Assembly (NCBI GenBank): GCA_018065305.1 | Contig: JAGHTO010000029.1 | Span: 1-40,155 of the forward strand | Direction of reading: 5' to 3' | Origin: Candidatus Cacconaster scatequi | GTDB lineage: Bacteria > Bacteroidota > Bacteroidia > Bacteroidales > UBA932 | Length of the DNA: 40,155 nt | Part shown: piece by piece, positions 6,563 through 28,987 of the stretch | Numbering within the stretch: the first letter of the stretch is position 1 | Layout of the letters: every line of letters starts with the position of its first letter | The notes under the pieces: generated by a model | Database searches by the model: none | Seen by the model: only the letters and a program-made list of their open reading frames with translations | What the model was told of the DNA's origin: nothing | Translations under genes and position numbers: made by a program

Positions 6563-6676
6563 GGAGTTGGAATCTGCCGCTTTCGAAGGCTAGCCGCCCT
6601 CGGCTCTAGAGGGAGGGGCCCATAAGCGTAGCGCGTGGGAGGGCCCGGCCTGGAGAAAGCGGCAGATTCCAACTCC
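6563..6676. repeat. 114-bp element bounded by a perfect 22-bp inverted repeat
   Basis: The arms 6563-6584 and 6655-6676 are perfect reverse complements over 22 bases. The pairing continues imperfectly inward for about 17 more bases. The centre also contains two copies of GGGCCC (6616-6621 and 6641-6646) that can pair with each other. The element lies between the murU stop and the ffh promoter. It has no T-run on either side, so it is not a standard intrinsic terminator. It could be a dispersed palindromic or MITE-like repeat, or a structured RNA. The open frame that crosses it on the minus strand has no coding character. Confidence 0.7.
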
Positions 6677-6744: not shown

Positions 6745-6770
6745 GGATTGAGAATAGCGCCTCTCAATCC
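6745..6770 (-). terminator. Hairpin at the 3' end of the recQ-murU operon
   Basis: GGATTGAGA (6745-6753) and TCTCAATCC (6762-6770) form a perfect 9-bp stem with an 8-base loop that overlaps the murU stop codon. On the minus strand it is followed by a mixed sequence with only a short T-run about 15 bases later, so it may be a weak terminator or a 3'-end stabilising hairpin. Confidence 0.45.
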
Positions 6771-7474
6771 CGTGGGACGCTGTCTATCTTGCCGAGGTCC
6801 CTCACTTTGAATCCGTCGGGGACAACGCCTCTGACAACATTTGTGCGGCAGATTGAGAGATAGAAATCAATGATGCCGAACACGTCCGGGAAATCCTGCA
6901 TCAGCGGGAAGATGGAGGGACTGGCGTAGTGTATTCCGGAGAAGGCGAGGGGAGTGCACTGGTCCGGGTCGATGCCGCCGTAGGGGCTCCTGATTTCACC
7001 GGTCTGTATGTTCTGCCACCCGACAAGCCTCATCTGATCGTCGAAAAGAAGATAGCGGCTGGTTTTTCTGGAACTGACAAGCAGTGTGGCCGCGGCGTCG
7101 TTACGGTGCTGCTCCCTGAACCACCCGAAATCCAGATTGGAATCTATATCCACGTTATGAACGAGAAAAGGCTCATCCTTCCCGAGCAACGGCTCCGCAA
7201 ACTTGATTCCCCCTCCGGTGTCGCGGAGCAGGTCACTTTCGTCGGAGAAACTTATCCTGACTCCGAAATTGCCGTTTGCCGCAACATAGTCGCGTATCTG
7301 TGACGCGAAGTGATGGATGTTGATTACTATGTCGTCATAGCCCGCTGCAATCAGCCTGTCAAGAACCATCTTGAGCATCGGCTCCCCGTTGACGGGGACA
7401 AGCGCCTTGGGCATAGTGTCCGTCAGAGGTTTGAGGCGGGTCCCCAAACCGGCTGCAAAAATCATCGCTTTCAT
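6764..7474 (-). CDS. murU: MurU-like N-acetylmuramate 1-phosphate uridylyltransferase
   Basis: 236-residue sugar-phosphate nucleotidyltransferase. MurU joins MurNAc-1-phosphate to UTP, giving UDP-MurNAc in the recycling pathway that bypasses de novo MurA/MurB synthesis. Motifs seen are AAGLGTRLKPLT (nucleotide loop, residues 7-18), PKALVPVNGEPML, the RDTGGGIKFAEPLL segment typical of MurU, and HNVDIDS for metal binding. Its ATG overlaps the stop of the kinase gene by 4 bases (ATGA), so the two are translationally coupled; amgK and murU are adjacent in Pseudomonas as well. Mannose-1-phosphate or glucose-1-phosphate nucleotidyltransferases share the fold, but the kinase partner and TGGGI segment favour MurU. 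Confidence 0.8.
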   Translation of the reverse strand: MKAMIFAAGLGTRLKPLTDTMPKALVPVNGEPMLKMVLDRLIAAGYDDIVINIHHFASQIRDYVAANGNFGVRISFSDESDLLRDTGGGIKFAEPLLGKDEPFLVHNVDIDSNLDFGWFREQHRNDAAATLLVSSRKTSRYLLFDDQMRLVGWQNIQTGEIRSPYGGIDPDQCTPLAFSGIHYASPSIFPLMQDFPDVFGIIDFYLSICRTNVVRGVVPDGFKVRDLGKIDSVPRD

Positions 7475-8871
7475 TTCAAATATTCATCTACGCCCTGTTC
7501 CCTGTGGACCAGGCGGACTTTTACATTATACTTTTCAATTATGTGCCTTGCGGTCTTCTCTGCACAGTAGACGGACCTGTGCTGGCCTCCCGTGCAACCG
7601 AAACATATCTCCAGATGGGTGAACCCCCTCCTTATGAACTCTTCGATATGAGAATCCACCAATCCACGGACGTGATCGAGGAATGAAGCGACTCCGGACG
7701 TGTTTTCAAGGAACTTAATCACTTCGGGGTCGCGTCCTGTCAGATTCCTGTACTCCTCATACCTTCCCGGATTGTCAAAGCCCCGGCAGTCGAAGACATA
7801 TCCGCCCCCGTTGCCGCTCTCGTCAGCCGGAACGCCTTTCTTGAATGAGAAACTGCTGACCTTGACCTCCAGAGTTCCGTCGCCTTTCCTTTCACTCCGA
7901 CGGAAACGGTCCGCCAACTGTCCGGATATCACGGCCAACGCCGGGTATTCAGTGAATCCCGTTTCGAACATCCTGCGGAGATTCTCTATCGCAAAGGGGA
8001 TGCTGCGGATGAAATGCTCCTTCTTCTCGATGAGCCCGCGGAAACCGTACGCCCCGAGCACCTGAAGCGTCCTGAAAAGGACGAACTGACGGAGAGTCGC
8101 CTTGAAACCGGCCCTGTCAATGGGGACATATTTTTCCGCACTTTCCATATAGGCATCCACCAGCCGCTCTTTCAGAGCGTCAGGGTATGCGGCGCGGGCC
8201 TGCCATACGAAGGAGGCTACGTCATAATAAACGGGACCTTTTCTTCCTCCTTGGAAATCAATTAGATATGGCTCTTCATCCTTAATCATCACGTTCCTCG
8301 CCTGGAAGTCACGGTACATAAAAGTTTCGGACCGGTTCTCAAGCAGGACGGCGGAGAGTCTTGCGAAATCATCTTCCAGCGCAATCTCATCGAATTCGAT
8401 TCCGGAAGGCTTCAGGAAACAGTATTTGAAATAGTTCAGGTCGAATGAGACCATCCTTGCGTCGAACTCCTTCTGGGGGAAGCACAGCGACCAGTCGAGA
8501 CCATCCGCTCCTTCGAACTGTATCTTGGAGAGCATCCGTATCGTCTTGAAAATCAGTTCTTCCTTATCGGGGCCGTCGGGGATGTCAAACAGGGCGAGAT
8601 CCCCGAGATCTTCTTGGATATATGCGCTGTAGTCATCCGTGCGCGCAAGCACTTCCGGGACGTTTATCCCTTTCTTCCTGAAATGACGGGCGAGTTCACA
8701 GAACGCCCGGTCTTCCTTCAGGGAGGTGCCTTCAACTCCGATATATGTCTTGCCGTCGCATCCGGCAATTCTGAAATAACTCCTGTTGCTGCCGCTGCCG
8801 CGCAACTGCTCCACTTTGCACGGCCCGCTTCTTGTCAGTTCACTGAACAGTTGTGATAATTTTTCTGTCAT
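7471..8871 (-). CDS. amgK: AmgK-like MurNAc/GlcNAc kinase fused to a RapZ C-terminal domain
   Basis: 466-residue two-domain protein. Residues about 1-320 are an aminoglycoside-phosphotransferase-fold kinase like AmgK, which phosphorylates MurNAc or GlcNAc at C1. Catalytic Asp188 is in MYRDFQARNVMI (Tyr replaces the first His of the usual HRD) and the metal-binding Asp205 is in LIDFQGG. Residues about 335-460 match the C-terminal domain of RapZ, with FDCRGFDNPG at 360-369 and the signature GCTGGQHRSVY at 425-435. The RapZ N-terminal P-loop ATPase domain is absent. In E. coli the RapZ C-domain binds glucosamine-6-phosphate, so the fused domain may sense amino-sugar supply; this is inference. 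ATGA overlaps link it to the nitroreductase before it and murU after it. Confidence 0.85.
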   Translation of the reverse strand: MTEKLSQLFSELTRSGPCKVEQLRGSGSNRSYFRIAGCDGKTYIGVEGTSLKEDRAFCELARHFRKKGINVPEVLARTDDYSAYIQEDLGDLALFDIPDGPDKEELIFKTIRMLSKIQFEGADGLDWSLCFPQKEFDARMVSFDLNYFKYCFLKPSGIEFDEIALEDDFARLSAVLLENRSETFMYRDFQARNVMIKDEEPYLIDFQGGRKGPVYYDVASFVWQARAAYPDALKERLVDAYMESAEKYVPIDRAGFKATLRQFVLFRTLQVLGAYGFRGLIEKKEHFIRSIPFAIENLRRMFETGFTEYPALAVISGQLADRFRRSERKGDGTLEVKVSSFSFKKGVPADESGNGGGYVFDCRGFDNPGRYEEYRNLTGRDPEVIKFLENTSGVASFLDHVRGLVDSHIEEFIRRGFTHLEICFGCTGGQHRSVYCAEKTARHIIEKYNVKVRLVHREQGVDEYLK

Positions 8872-9449
8872 TGCTTCAATGTCGGGTGACCGACGCTCTG
8901 AACCATTGTTATTGTCTGCTCCGGCCTGAGTTTCAGGGCGGCGGACAACTTCTCCCTGTCGAACATTGCACGGATTACCGTGTTGAGCCCCGCTCCGGCC
9001 GCGTACAGATAGATGTTTTCGGAAATGAAACCTGTGTCGACGAAAATGGTTTCCAGAACTCCCTGCGGAGTTTTCCCGGTGATTTTGGAGGTGTCCGCCA
9101 CGAACGCGATGTTCATAGGGACCTCCGCTACGAAATCCTGGGCTCCCGTCAATGCGCGAAGGTCACCATCACTCTTCTGAATCAGCCTGTTTCCGGATGC
9201 ATCGTAAAGATAGACGCCGCTTTTGAGGAAAATGTACAGTTCCATCTCCTGCCTGTTGTGGGAGGACGGAGCCGTGCGGAAACCGTCACGGTTGAACCCG
9301 TATGCGGACCATAGCAGGTTGGAGATATCCTGCAGGTCAATCGCTTTTTCGGAACATTTCCTGTGTGAGGCTCTTTTGCCGAATGCCTCCATCAGCGGGA
9401 TTCCGCCTGCCGTTTCCGGAGGGGGGAGTATTATATCTTTCATATTCAT
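8868..9449 (-). CDS. SagB-type nitroreductase family protein
   Basis: 193-residue FMN-dependent nitroreductase-fold protein. The pattern LWSAYGFNRDGFRTAPSSHN (residues about 45-64), then QEMELYIFL and GVYLYD, is characteristic of the SagB/ThcOx-like branch, whose members oxidise azolines or act on unknown substrates. No leader peptide or cyclodehydratase gene is nearby, so peptide modification is unlikely and the physiological reaction is unknown. The start at 9449 is chosen because its ATG overlaps the recQ stop as ATGA; a second ATG two codons later (9443) is also possible. Its own stop overlaps the start of the amgK-rapZ gene by 4 bases. It has no signal peptide and is probably cytoplasmic. 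Confidence 0.8.
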   Translation of the reverse strand: MNMKDIILPPPETAGGIPLMEAFGKRASHRKCSEKAIDLQDISNLLWSAYGFNRDGFRTAPSSHNRQEMELYIFLKSGVYLYDASGNRLIQKSDGDLRALTGAQDFVAEVPMNIAFVADTSKITGKTPQGVLETIFVDTGFISENIYLYAAGAGLNTVIRAMFDREKLSAALKLRPEQTITMVQSVGHPTLKQ

Positions 9450-11221
9450 TTGCTGCGTAAAGTTAGTAAATTCCTGTATTGGATGGCCTTCTCTTCGGAT
9501 ATACCGGAACCCGCTTTTCCCACATTTGCGGCCCTGCATACGTCACATTTGCCGCAGGGCTCGTCCAGCGCCTCGCCGAAATATTGGAGAAGACCTGCAT
9601 TCCTGCAGTGCCTGTCGTCCGACACGATTGATGACATCGCCTCCAGCCTTTCCGTATGTCTTGTGACCTTTTCTTTCCAGTTGCTTTCCGGAAGCCTGAG
9701 GTTCTTGTCGTAGAGACGCTCGTTGTTCAGACTGAGCATAGGGGAGGATATGGCCGGAATATACTTCACCACATCCATTCTCGAAAGTCTCTTCAGTTTT
9801 TCCTTCACGACTTCCGGAGAGTAGTGCCCCGCCAGGGAGATTTTGTCAATGTCTATCGATACATACGATGAGAACAAACCGGTGTACATCCTCAGAAGCA
9901 ACTTTACGAAAGTGTCCGTTTCGGCATCGCCGAGCTGGATGCGGTAGAGCTGGTCCCTGCTTACCGAGAACTGTAGCCTTGCGGGAATTCTGACCGTTTC
10001 AGACAGTGACCAATACCCTTCGGATTCTATGTACTTTATGGCATAGTATGCTGTTGCTGCATTGAGCCTGTATCTCTTTGCGAACTCCTCGACGTCGAAT
10101 TTGACGGACGCCCCGGCTCCCTCCTCGTATGCGTACCCGATGAAGGTGAACACTTTCTGATAGATGTCACGGACGTAGGGCAATGAGGGACAGGAGGTCT
10201 GAATCACCTTCCTGTGCGTTGCAAGGTCCGCTTCGTTCCACAGGAGAATGCAGAAGGAATCCTTGCCGTCCCTCCCGGCGCGGCCCGATTCCTGAAAATA
10301 GTTCTCCACACAGTCTGGCATATCGTAATGGCATACAAAACGCACGTCGGGTTTGTCGATACCCATTCCGAAGGCATTCGTCGAAACGATTATCCGGGTA
10401 TTGCCGCCTATCCACCGTTCCTGGACGGCGCTTCTGGCGGCGGGGGACATTCCTGCGTGGTAGCCTTCCGCGGAAATTCCGTGCGATTGGAGCAGCTGGG
10501 CGAGGTCTTCCGCGGATTTCCTCCTGCCGACATACACTATTCCGCTTCCGGAAATGGTGCCGCAGATTTTCAGCAGCCGACCGGTTTTGTCCTCGACTTT
10601 CCTGAATATGTACGAAAGATTCCTGCGGAGGAACGAGCCTTTGATTACGTTCCCGGCCCTGAATTCCAGTCTGGCCATTATATCTTCGGCCACCGTTTCC
10701 GTGGCTGTGGCCGTCATTGCGACCACCGGAATTCTTGTGGGAAGAATCTTCAGTATCTCCGCTATCACAAGGTAATCGGGACGGAAGTCATACCCCCATT
10801 GGGAGATGCAGTGGGCTTCGTCGACAGCAATCAGATTGACGTTCATCTTTCTGACCCTCGCCTTGAAGAGGTCGCTTCTGAGCCTTTCCGGAGAGACATA
10901 GAGGAATTTGACATCTCCGTAAACGACATTGTCGAGAGCTATGTCAATCTGGCGGTATGTCATTCCGCTGTGGATAGCAACCGCCTCGATTCCTCTCCTG
11001 CAAAGATTCTCCACCTGGTCCTTTATCAGCGCGATGAGAGGGGAGACCACTATGCAGACGCCTTCCCTCATCAGTGCCGGAACTTGAAAACATATCGATT
11101 TCCCGCCTCCTGTAGGCAGAATCGCCAGCGTGTCCCGTCCCTCCAGTATGGAGGATATTATCTCTTCCTGTAAAGGCCGGAAACTCTCATACCCCCAATA
11201 TTTCTTCAAAGTCGTTTTCAT
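9446..11221 (-). CDS. recQ: RecQ-type ATP-dependent DNA helicase
   Basis: 591-residue superfamily 2 3'-5' DNA helicase. Motif I LPTGGGKS, motif II DEAH (AVDEAHCISQWG), motif III AMTATAT, motif V FGMGIDKPDV and motif VI QESGRAGRDG are intact. A RecQ-C zinc-binding and winged-helix region follows, with the cysteines of CRNAG, EPCGKCDVC near residues 545-570. The HRDC domain of E. coli RecQ is missing, as in the shorter Bacteroidota paralogues. The N-terminus MKTTLKKYWGYESFRPLQ fits RecQ starts well, so ATG 11221 is firm. It lies only five bases after a TATTTTTG box, suggesting a leaderless or nearly leaderless mRNA. It is the first gene of a four-gene ATGA-overlapping operon with the nitroreductase, AmgK-RapZ and MurU. 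Confidence 0.93.
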   Translation of the reverse strand: MKTTLKKYWGYESFRPLQEEIISSILEGRDTLAILPTGGGKSICFQVPALMREGVCIVVSPLIALIKDQVENLCRRGIEAVAIHSGMTYRQIDIALDNVVYGDVKFLYVSPERLRSDLFKARVRKMNVNLIAVDEAHCISQWGYDFRPDYLVIAEILKILPTRIPVVAMTATATETVAEDIMARLEFRAGNVIKGSFLRRNLSYIFRKVEDKTGRLLKICGTISGSGIVYVGRRKSAEDLAQLLQSHGISAEGYHAGMSPAARSAVQERWIGGNTRIIVSTNAFGMGIDKPDVRFVCHYDMPDCVENYFQESGRAGRDGKDSFCILLWNEADLATHRKVIQTSCPSLPYVRDIYQKVFTFIGYAYEEGAGASVKFDVEEFAKRYRLNAATAYYAIKYIESEGYWSLSETVRIPARLQFSVSRDQLYRIQLGDAETDTFVKLLLRMYTGLFSSYVSIDIDKISLAGHYSPEVVKEKLKRLSRMDVVKYIPAISSPMLSLNNERLYDKNLRLPESNWKEKVTRHTERLEAMSSIVSDDRHCRNAGLLQYFGEALDEPCGKCDVCRAANVGKAGSGISEEKAIQYRNLLTLRSK

Positions 11222-27807: not shown

Positions 27808-28884
27808 CTATACTTTCAGAAAAACCTTCTTTTTGTAAAGGAAGTAGAGAACTGACCAGGCTACAAGCAGGTAACCTGCGCGCAATACAACAGCGCCCCA
27901 ATCCTTGGGGAAAAGCGATGCGAAACCCCCGAAAATGAATTCGGAAGTGCTCCAGTAATTGATTATTGCCGGCAACAGATAACTGGCGATGGAGTTTATT
28001 CCTATGATTTTGAAAGGAAACGCCCACCTGCTCCATCCCTTTACGTCGATTATCCAATAGAAAATTGCCAGCAGCGCTGCGGAATATGCTCCGACTACGA
28101 GAACGAAACTGCTGCTCCACAGTTTCTTGTTGATGGGAAACTTGATTGACCAGAGCAGACCGACCGTCAGCATTGCCACTGCGGCTGCCAGAAGGATGAG
28201 GGTCTTCCTGTTTCCGGTGATCTTCTCAGTCCTGAGCAGTTCTCCGGAGAACATTCCCAGCATAGCAGTCACTATTGCAGGCAGGGTGCTGATGAGTCCT
28301 TCGGGGTCAAACGTTCCATAGCAGAGATGACCTGCAAGCAGTTTCCGGTCTAGCCAGCCGATGATGTTCCCTTCGAATGACAGCGGGTCGGCACCGGGAA
28401 CGTCCGGTGCCGGAATCATACAGATGAACCAGTATGCAATGAGTATAACGGCACAGATGATTGCGCGTGTCTTTCTGCCGAACCATACGTACAGCAGCGC
28501 GGCTCCCATCCAGGCAAGCCCGATACGTCCCAGTACGCTGTAGAAACGGGCGGTGGAGAAGTCCAGCTCCAGCAGGCCGTTGTATATCATACCCAGAAAT
28601 ACGAGGACGGCGGCTCTCTTGAAAATCTTCCTGTATATGTGGTCTTTGGTCTTGGCGAAGGAATAGGGGAAAGAGACTCCGGCTATGAACAGGAAGAGAG
28701 GGAAAATCGTGTCGTGATGTCTCAAACCGTCCCACTGGGCGTGGTCCATCTGTATGTCAAGCCAGCATCCTTCGTGTCCCAGCGCGACGCATATTGCGGA
28801 AACCAAGGATGCGAACCCCATTATGAAAACCATATCGAATCCTCTCAGGGCATCGAGTGATTCGAGACGTTTGTGCTGTTCCAT
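27808..28884 (-). CDS. HGSNAT/DUF5009-like membrane acyltransferase
   Basis: 358-residue inner-membrane protein with about ten helices. The N-terminal RLESLDALRGFDMVFIMG and the DTIFPLFLFIAGVSFPYSFAK segment are typical of the heparan-alpha-glucosaminide N-acetyltransferase catalytic family. The His in MDHAQWDG and in LRHHD are candidates for the acetyl-carrying residue. Bacteroidota members are thought to acylate sugars at the membrane; the acceptor here is unknown. ATG 28884 (MEQHKRLESLDALRG) is chosen over a start 33 codons upstream, which lies across the intergenic promoter region. It is divergent from an acyltransferase-3 gene, an unrelated membrane acyltransferase. Confidence 0.82.
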   Translation of the reverse strand: MEQHKRLESLDALRGFDMVFIMGFASLVSAICVALGHEGCWLDIQMDHAQWDGLRHHDTIFPLFLFIAGVSFPYSFAKTKDHIYRKIFKRAAVLVFLGMIYNGLLELDFSTARFYSVLGRIGLAWMGAALLYVWFGRKTRAIICAVILIAYWFICMIPAPDVPGADPLSFEGNIIGWLDRKLLAGHLCYGTFDPEGLISTLPAIVTAMLGMFSGELLRTEKITGNRKTLILLAAAVAMLTVGLLWSIKFPINKKLWSSSFVLVVGAYSAALLAIFYWIIDVKGWSRWAFPFKIIGINSIASYLLPAIINYWSTSEFIFGGFASLFPKDWGAVVLRAGYLLVAWSVLYFLYKKKVFLKV

Positions 28885-28904
28885 TATTCTGATGTTTATC
28901 TGTA

Positions 28905-28912
28905 CTAAGTTA
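28905..28912 (-). promoter_or_regulatory. Imperfect -7 box TAACTTAG upstream of the HGSNAT-like gene
   Basis: TAACTTAG on the minus strand differs from TAnnTTTG at one position and lies 20 bases before the ATG. It is the best candidate in the divergent intergenic region for this direction. Confidence 0.3.
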
Positions 28913-28946
28913 GTTCTATTATTGCTTATAAACAAAAAATATATAG

Positions 28947-28954
28947 TAAATTTG
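28947..28954 (+). promoter_or_regulatory. -7 box TAAATTTG upstream of the acyltransferase-3 operon
   Basis: TAAATTTG matches the consensus exactly. A TTG at 28922-28924 is 22 bases upstream, near the usual 19-21. The leader to ATG 28988 would be about 28 bases. Confidence 0.5.
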
Positions 28955-28987
28955 AAGCAACGAATATTTGGAACCTGTTTCAAAAGT

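Follow-up and report, generated by a model that had tools for sequence, protein, structure and literature searches.

An AmgK-like kinase fused to the C-terminal domain of RapZ in Bacteroidales: a candidate for ligand-governed amino-sugar salvage

A single open reading frame joins an AmgK-like kinase to the C-terminal domain of RapZ (RapZ_C) in the DNA analysed here, a stretch of 40,155 nucleotides from Candidatus Cacconaster scatequi (the window), and a gene for a MurU-like protein follows it directly. The fusion is a regular architecture in the relatives and not an oddity. Our leading reading, which we hold tentatively and on the basis of sequence and model comparison, is a salvage kinase governed by a RapZ C-domain that would bind a phosphorylated amino sugar. 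The original prediction for this locus is partly supported. No description of a kinase–RapZ_C fusion was found in the literature searched, subscription papers being mostly outside the search, and the role of the RapZ tail in fused kinases seems to be so far unstudied.

The features are summarized in Table 1. The reading frames and the Pfam analysis confirm what had been described for this gene: an AmgK-type kinase and a RapZ C-domain in one frame of 466 residues, which lacks the RapZ ATPase domain and overlaps murU by ATGA. The C-domain matches PF22740 with 118 bits (cut-off 27), and in the structure comparison of the model its fold is 1.7 Å from 5o5s. The N-terminal Walker ATPase domain of RapZ (PF03668) has no Pfam match in the fusion protein. 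According to the genome search, the fusion protein has one match in the window's own genome. On the upstream side, a frame of the nitroreductase family (8868–9539, minus strand; Pfam 69 bits) overlaps the fusion start with its stop by 4 bases, and the two genes are possibly on one transcript; the likeness of this frame to SagB is weak (53.6 bits, cut-off 78.4). On the downstream side, between murU and the SRP54/Ffh gene (both on the minus strand), a perfect inverted repeat (22 nt, spacer of 70 nt) is located at 6563–6676. A second copy is present nowhere else in the window, and the repeat may represent a small element of mobile or regulatory nature.

Table 1. Positions of the fusion gene, its parts and the neighbouring murU gene in the window
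Feature	Position	Strand	Basis
Fusion gene, AmgK-like kinase + RapZ C-terminal domain, 466 aa	7471..8871	-	single ORF; Pfam APH + PF22740
Kinase domain, residues about 1–305	7957..8871	-	
Catalytic loop YRDFQARN, residues 186–193, with Asp188	8293..8316	-	conservation in 105 fused rows
Asp205 of the IDFQGG motif, presumed metal ligand	8257..8259	-	105/105 fused rows
RapZ C-terminal domain, residues 333–461	7489..7875	-	
GGG, residues 355–357, within an insertion	7801..7809	-	105/105 fused rows; gap in E. coli RapZ
NPGR, residues 367–370, at the place of E. coli RapZ N188-P189-H190-W191	7762..7773	-	
C(X)5R(S) phosphate loop CTGGQHRS, residues 426–433 (E. coli C247–S254)	7573..7596	-	
ATGA overlap, fusion stop / murU start	7471..7474	-	reading frames
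MurU-like sugar-1-phosphate nucleotidylyltransferase, 236 aa	6764..7474	-	NCBIfam MurU models; Pfam NTP_transferase

Residue conservation was counted in 105 fused rows, which consist of 27 rows of the phylum (the window included) and 78 of named relatives; split rows were left out. In the kinase, Arg187, Asp188, Phe189, Arg192, Asn193, Asp205 and Gln207 are each conserved in 105/105 rows. Asp205 is presumably a metal ligand, a role that we carry over from the APH family. Pfam, the conservation and the structure comparison all indicate an APH-type kinase fold with the catalytic Asp and the second Asp. Position 186 is Tyr in 95/105 rows, Phe in 8, Cys in 1 and His in 1. Thus, the Tyr in place of His in the HRD motif, which had been taken for a special variation of the active site, is ordinary for the family. 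Against the two NCBIfam AmgK models the kinase scores 56.2 of 550 and 39.9 of 500 bits, far below the cut-offs, and the homologue of Tannerella forsythia is also below them (66.5 and 31.8 bits). As these equivalog cut-offs are not reached, the kinase is named AmgK-like here, not AmgK. In the structure comparison, the kinase superposes on 3csv and, less well, on NahK and glucosamine kinase. For the product of the next gene, the two best NCBIfam families are both MurU models (122 of 250 and 116 of 370 bits, under the cut-offs), and Pfam NTP_transferase is also matched. The protein is likely a MurNAc salvage kinase.

In order to see how common the architecture is, a single sample of 296 genomes from the phylum was surveyed, in which family f18 weighs heavily. 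RapZ_C is over the cut-off in 36 genomes, and all 36 also carry the kinase. The two are fused in a single frame in 27 of them, are split neighbours in seven (G012, G031, G095, G210, G265, G277 and G281) and are unlinked in two (G180 and G271). With 27 fusions among the 36 RapZ_C genomes, the notion of the fusion as a rarity was rejected. Among the 100 kinase-matched genomes, 63 have only distant kinases (23–30% identity) and lack RapZ_C, and G009 has the kinase and MurU with no RapZ_C match. As had been expected of genomes with the fusion, no full-length rapZ was detected: PF03668 is over the cut-off in 0/296 genomes, and no such domain is attached to any of the 36 RapZ_C matches. Below the cut-off of 25.4 bits, it appears in G130 (22.8 bits) and G234 (21.3 bits). 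The control genomes were positive in 6/14 cases for PF03668 and in 6/14 for PF22740. The Bacillus subtilis control matched neither family, and its YvcJ is described as a RapZ homologue (PMC9841335). Family searches can thus miss a homologue, and the count of 0/296 is no proof. Bacteroides ihuae gave no RapZ_C match in the profile search, so even a Bacteroides may lack the domain or be missed.

The named relatives discussed here are the best 80 of at least 594 and are therefore close relatives; they include T. forsythia (L100), Phocaeicola vulgatus, Parabacteroides and Mediterranea. The gene is fused in 78 of these 80; of the two exceptions, L069 lies at the end of a contig, and in L136 the gene is divided between two frames. 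A MurU homologue is present in the locus in 78 of the 80 (all except L069 and L109). The 4-base overlap is shared by 22 of these 78 MurU-bearing loci; MurU is on the opposite strand in one locus and 1.1 kb away in another, with spacings measured from the first possible start codon. Further relatives contributed 29 loci, of which 26 show the fusion and 22 include MurU. MurU is also present in 17/17 same-genus loci (L168–L184) and in 23/30 phylum loci with flanks of about 1.5 kb; it was not seen within these flanks in the other seven. The pairing with murU, as originally proposed, is supported. However, the link of kinase, RapZ_C and MurU is not obligatory, because G009 breaks it, as do G180 and G271, where no MurU is located in the 7 and 9 kb around the kinase. 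In the four split-neighbour loci read with flanks (L004, L027, L159 and L160), the order is kinase, RapZ_C, MurU. In the kinase tree, the split rows of family f5 nest in a clade that also contains nine fused rows (support 96/87); they are on a long branch whose exact position is uncertain, and many forks of the tree are open. Since these split rows nest among fused rows, fission after fusion is the simpler reading. According to this tree, the fission is probably secondary, and the RapZ_C domain was retained.

The MurB C-domain was found in 287/296 genomes, where the candidates of one genome (G267) were not all scored. It was not found in 4/36 RapZ_C genomes versus 5/260 others (Fisher p 0.015, a value that ignores phylogeny). 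The window's genome has MurB. T. forsythia is described as a species that lacks MurA and MurB and is proposed to depend on AmgK and MurU (PMC7670621), and it carries the same fusion. These results support the originally proposed role of the kinase on the way from MurNAc to UDP-MurNAc.

The RapZ/GlmZ circuit controls GlmS, and the fusion had been proposed to replace this circuit at the enzyme level. The window's genome is 96% complete and gave no GlmS; the sole match in it is a PurF-like glutaminase. GlmS is over the cut-off in 0/19 genomes of the window's genus, seven of which are 90–98% complete. Of 12 genomes of the order that belong to other families, 11 pass this cut-off, and the remaining one is 61% complete. 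The fusion was found in 18/19 genomes of the genus. Since it persists where GlmS was not found, the result argues against the proposed replacement and for a role in salvage itself. NagB is over the cut-off in 18/19 same-genus genomes. In six of the 19, a frame of about 380–395 residues weakly resembles the isomerase half of GlmS (57–69 bits); this frame, which is absent from the window's genome, might be another way to GlcN6P. For Akkermansia muciniphila it is published that GlmS is absent, NagB is kept and GlcNAc is required (PMC5902328). We predict that the window's genus, like Akkermansia, has to take its amino sugars from salvage or from NagB acting in reverse. Elsewhere in the window, a NagX-like transmembrane glucosamine N-acetyltransferase is encoded at 27808–28983 on the minus strand (288 bits, cut-off 480), which would fit amino-sugar salvage. 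A nickel-dependent putative hexonate epimerase, NPN_18 (641 bits, cut-off 500), is encoded at 1244–2521 on the plus strand and adjoins a sugar-kinase-like gene and a PdxB-like gene.

The C-domain shows two different faces. In the phosphate loop, Cys, Thr, both Gly, His, Arg and Ser are each conserved in 105/105 fused rows and Gln430 in 99/105, and the loop is present in 26/26 further fused rows. The equivalents of C247, T248, G249, G250, H252, R253, S254, D182 and R184 of E. coli RapZ are invariant. On the other hand, the equivalent of H190 is Gly in 105/105 rows and that of W191 is Lys or Arg in 104/105, which gives the motif NPG followed by K/R. Among the 26 further fused rows, 25 have NPG, and the exception is an order-mate (L194) with NPHR. 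The GGG motif is likewise invariant and is located inside an insertion absent from E. coli RapZ. Thus, of the pocket set H190, T248, G249, H252 and R253, four are kept in all 105 rows and H190 is lost. In seven comparison proteins (RapZ of E. coli, Xanthomonas, Azospirillum and Latilactobacillus, and three actinobacterial plasmid C-domains), His or Tyr stands at the H190 place and the Cys and Arg are kept, as read by eye from the alignment. H190 is required for the activity of E. coli RapZ, and the variants H190A, G249W, R253A, C247A and C247S abolish its function (PMC9841335). The isolated E. coli CTD binds GlcN6P with a KD of 10 nM and responds to it (PMC7073468). According to these residues, the fused C-domain very probably binds a phosphorylated ligand, and its sugar side is, as far as the alignment tells, different from that of the RapZ measured. 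The original proposal of GlcN6P as the ligand does not stand as written: the phosphate loop is intact, but with Gly for H190 and the added GGG loop the label 'GlcN6P sensor' is not simply transferable.

In the mechanism that we favour, the AmgK-like anomeric kinase would phosphorylate salvaged MurNAc, and perhaps GlcNAc, at C1, and MurU from the next gene would turn the product into the UDP-sugar. The RapZ C-domain would be a module that binds a phosphorylated amino sugar. The ligand is probably an amino-sugar phosphate of the pathway and need not be GlcN6P, as the phosphate loop is invariant and the sugar side is remodelled. Ligand binding would raise or lower the activity of the kinase, and salvage may in this way be matched to the cytoplasmic pool of amino-sugar phosphates. 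Because the C-domain is also kept as a neighbouring or unlinked gene, it should act in trans too, by contact with the kinase. For this reading we count the architecture, the structure, the presence of the kinase in all 36 RapZ_C genomes, the absence of RapZ_N over the cut-off in the 296, the MurU pairing, T. forsythia, the MurB-less carriers, the ligand binding of the isolated E. coli CTD, the invariant loop and the probable retention of the domain after fission in family f5. Against it we count the loss of H190, the AmgK scores below the cut-offs, the genomes G009, G180 and G271, and the 7/30 loci without MurU. We infer that control by a ligand of the C-domain is more likely than any single rival.

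The main and serious rival is an enzymatic C-domain. It would be a C(X)5R cysteine-dependent sugar-phosphate phosphatase, for example one that converts MurNAc-6-phosphate to MurNAc in place of MupP and feeds the fused kinase. The sequence C-TGGQH-R-S fits C(X)5R(S), is invariant in the fused rows and, in the structure model, is flanked by a strand and a helix. For E. coli RapZ, Khan and Gorke saw a resemblance between the pocket and the phosphatase loop of cysteine-dependent tyrosine phosphatases, and they considered hydrolysis of GlcN6P possible (PMC7199280). The study of the E. coli variants suggests that the SH group of C247 is maybe catalytic and describes density for a product of GlcN6P, probably transformed (PMC9841335). 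The AmgK route of Pseudomonas employs the MurNAc-6P phosphatase MupP (PMC5371407), and the retention of the domain as a separate gene suits an autonomous enzyme. However, the C247 variants of E. coli also lost RNA binding (PMC9841335), so the Cys may be structural, and no general acid was identified. Five C-domains were compared with Pfam at E values up to 10, and PF22740 was the sole match, with no phosphatase family. The structure comparison also gave no phosphatase match; it says little on this point, because the query was the whole protein and kinases dominate the list. The product of AnmK is MurNAc-6P. AnmK was not found in 11/36 RapZ_C genomes, the window's included, and it is therefore less plausible that the C-domain mainly dephosphorylates this product. 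As MurQ was not found in the window's genome either, a MupP replacement fed by AnmK was rejected for that genome. We regard it as rather unlikely, though to be taken seriously, that the domain is a cysteine-dependent sugar-phosphate phosphatase, and give the same weight to the broader form of the idea, a Cys-dependent amino-sugar-phosphate phosphatase or self-clearing sensor welded to the salvage kinase. If it were true, the chemistry would be ancestral to the domain, and the RNA handling of enterobacteria would be a late addition.

Less probable is that the C-domain serves mainly as a dimerisation scaffold. The E. coli CTD dimerises alone and requires D182 for its self-interaction (PMC7073468), and the equivalent Asp361 is conserved in 105/105 fused rows. 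A scaffold would not need a whole invariant phosphate loop, however, nor would it need to be kept as a separate or unlinked gene. It is more doubtful still that the kinase and the nucleotidyltransferase act on a sugar other than MurNAc and feed a different nucleotide sugar. The scores below the curated AmgK and MurU cut-offs, the superposition of the kinase on NahK and glucosamine kinase (less good than on 3csv) and the failure to find AnmK and MurQ in the window's genome would agree with another sugar. The MurU models as best NCBIfam matches, the published MurNAc dependence of T. forsythia (PMC7670621) and the excess of MurB-less carriers argue against it.

The last candidate is an RNase adaptor or RNA-binding protein, in line with RefSeq, where the homologue from Parabacteroides distasonis is named 'RNase adapter RapZ'. 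Seven basic RNA-contact residues are named for RapZ (PMC9841335). In the 105 fused rows, Lys or Arg is kept at K170 in 104, at R184 in 105 and at R196 in 84, and a new Arg is present at the N236 place in 103. At R211, R238 and K251, other residues (Asp/Glu, Phe and Gln) stand in most or all rows, and the K194 equivalent is Arg in only 43/105 and Glu in the window protein. No Rfam family matches in the window. With the RapZ N-domain absent, H190 lost and several of the basic contacts not kept, the C-domain as an RNA adaptor was rejected as very improbable here.

By these results, the RapZ C-domain gains a second natural setting, free of the N-domain, where an enzyme read-out would make it testable whether the domain senses amino-sugar phosphates or changes them chemically. 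In addition, the fusion protein is likely the kinase by which many Bacteroidales, such as T. forsythia and P. vulgatus, salvage MurNAc, and the database name 'RNase adapter RapZ' can mislead here. In the window's genus, where GlmS was not found, the bacteria with this gene may have to obtain amino sugars via salvage or reverse NagB.

Stand-alone genes for the RapZ C-domain are located on linear actinobacterial plasmids (L152, 2956–3498; L153, 3001–3483; L154, 2998–3438) and are annotated as RNase adapter RapZ. Like the fusion, they have RapZ_C and no N-domain, and the C(X)5R loop is present in 3/3. They differ from the fusion in the residue at the H190 place, which is His or Tyr, and in their flanks of about 3 kb, where no sugar kinase is annotated and many neighbours are 'hypothetical'. 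With the C(X)5R cysteine-dependent phosphatases the fusion has in common, in the model, the loop between strand and helix, whereas a Pfam sequence match to them is lacking. With RapZ/YvcJ, the RNase adaptor and GlcN6P sensor, it shares the C-terminal fold and the phosphate loop; it differs by the missing ATPase domain, the Gly at H190, the GGG insertion and the loss of several basic RNA contacts. From the AmgK–MurU recycling of Pseudomonas, Caulobacter and Tannerella it differs by the extra RapZ C-domain, by scores far under the NCBIfam AmgK cut-offs and by a genome in which AnmK was not found, whereas the kinase fold, the catalytic residues, the adjacency to murU and the expected chemistry are the same.
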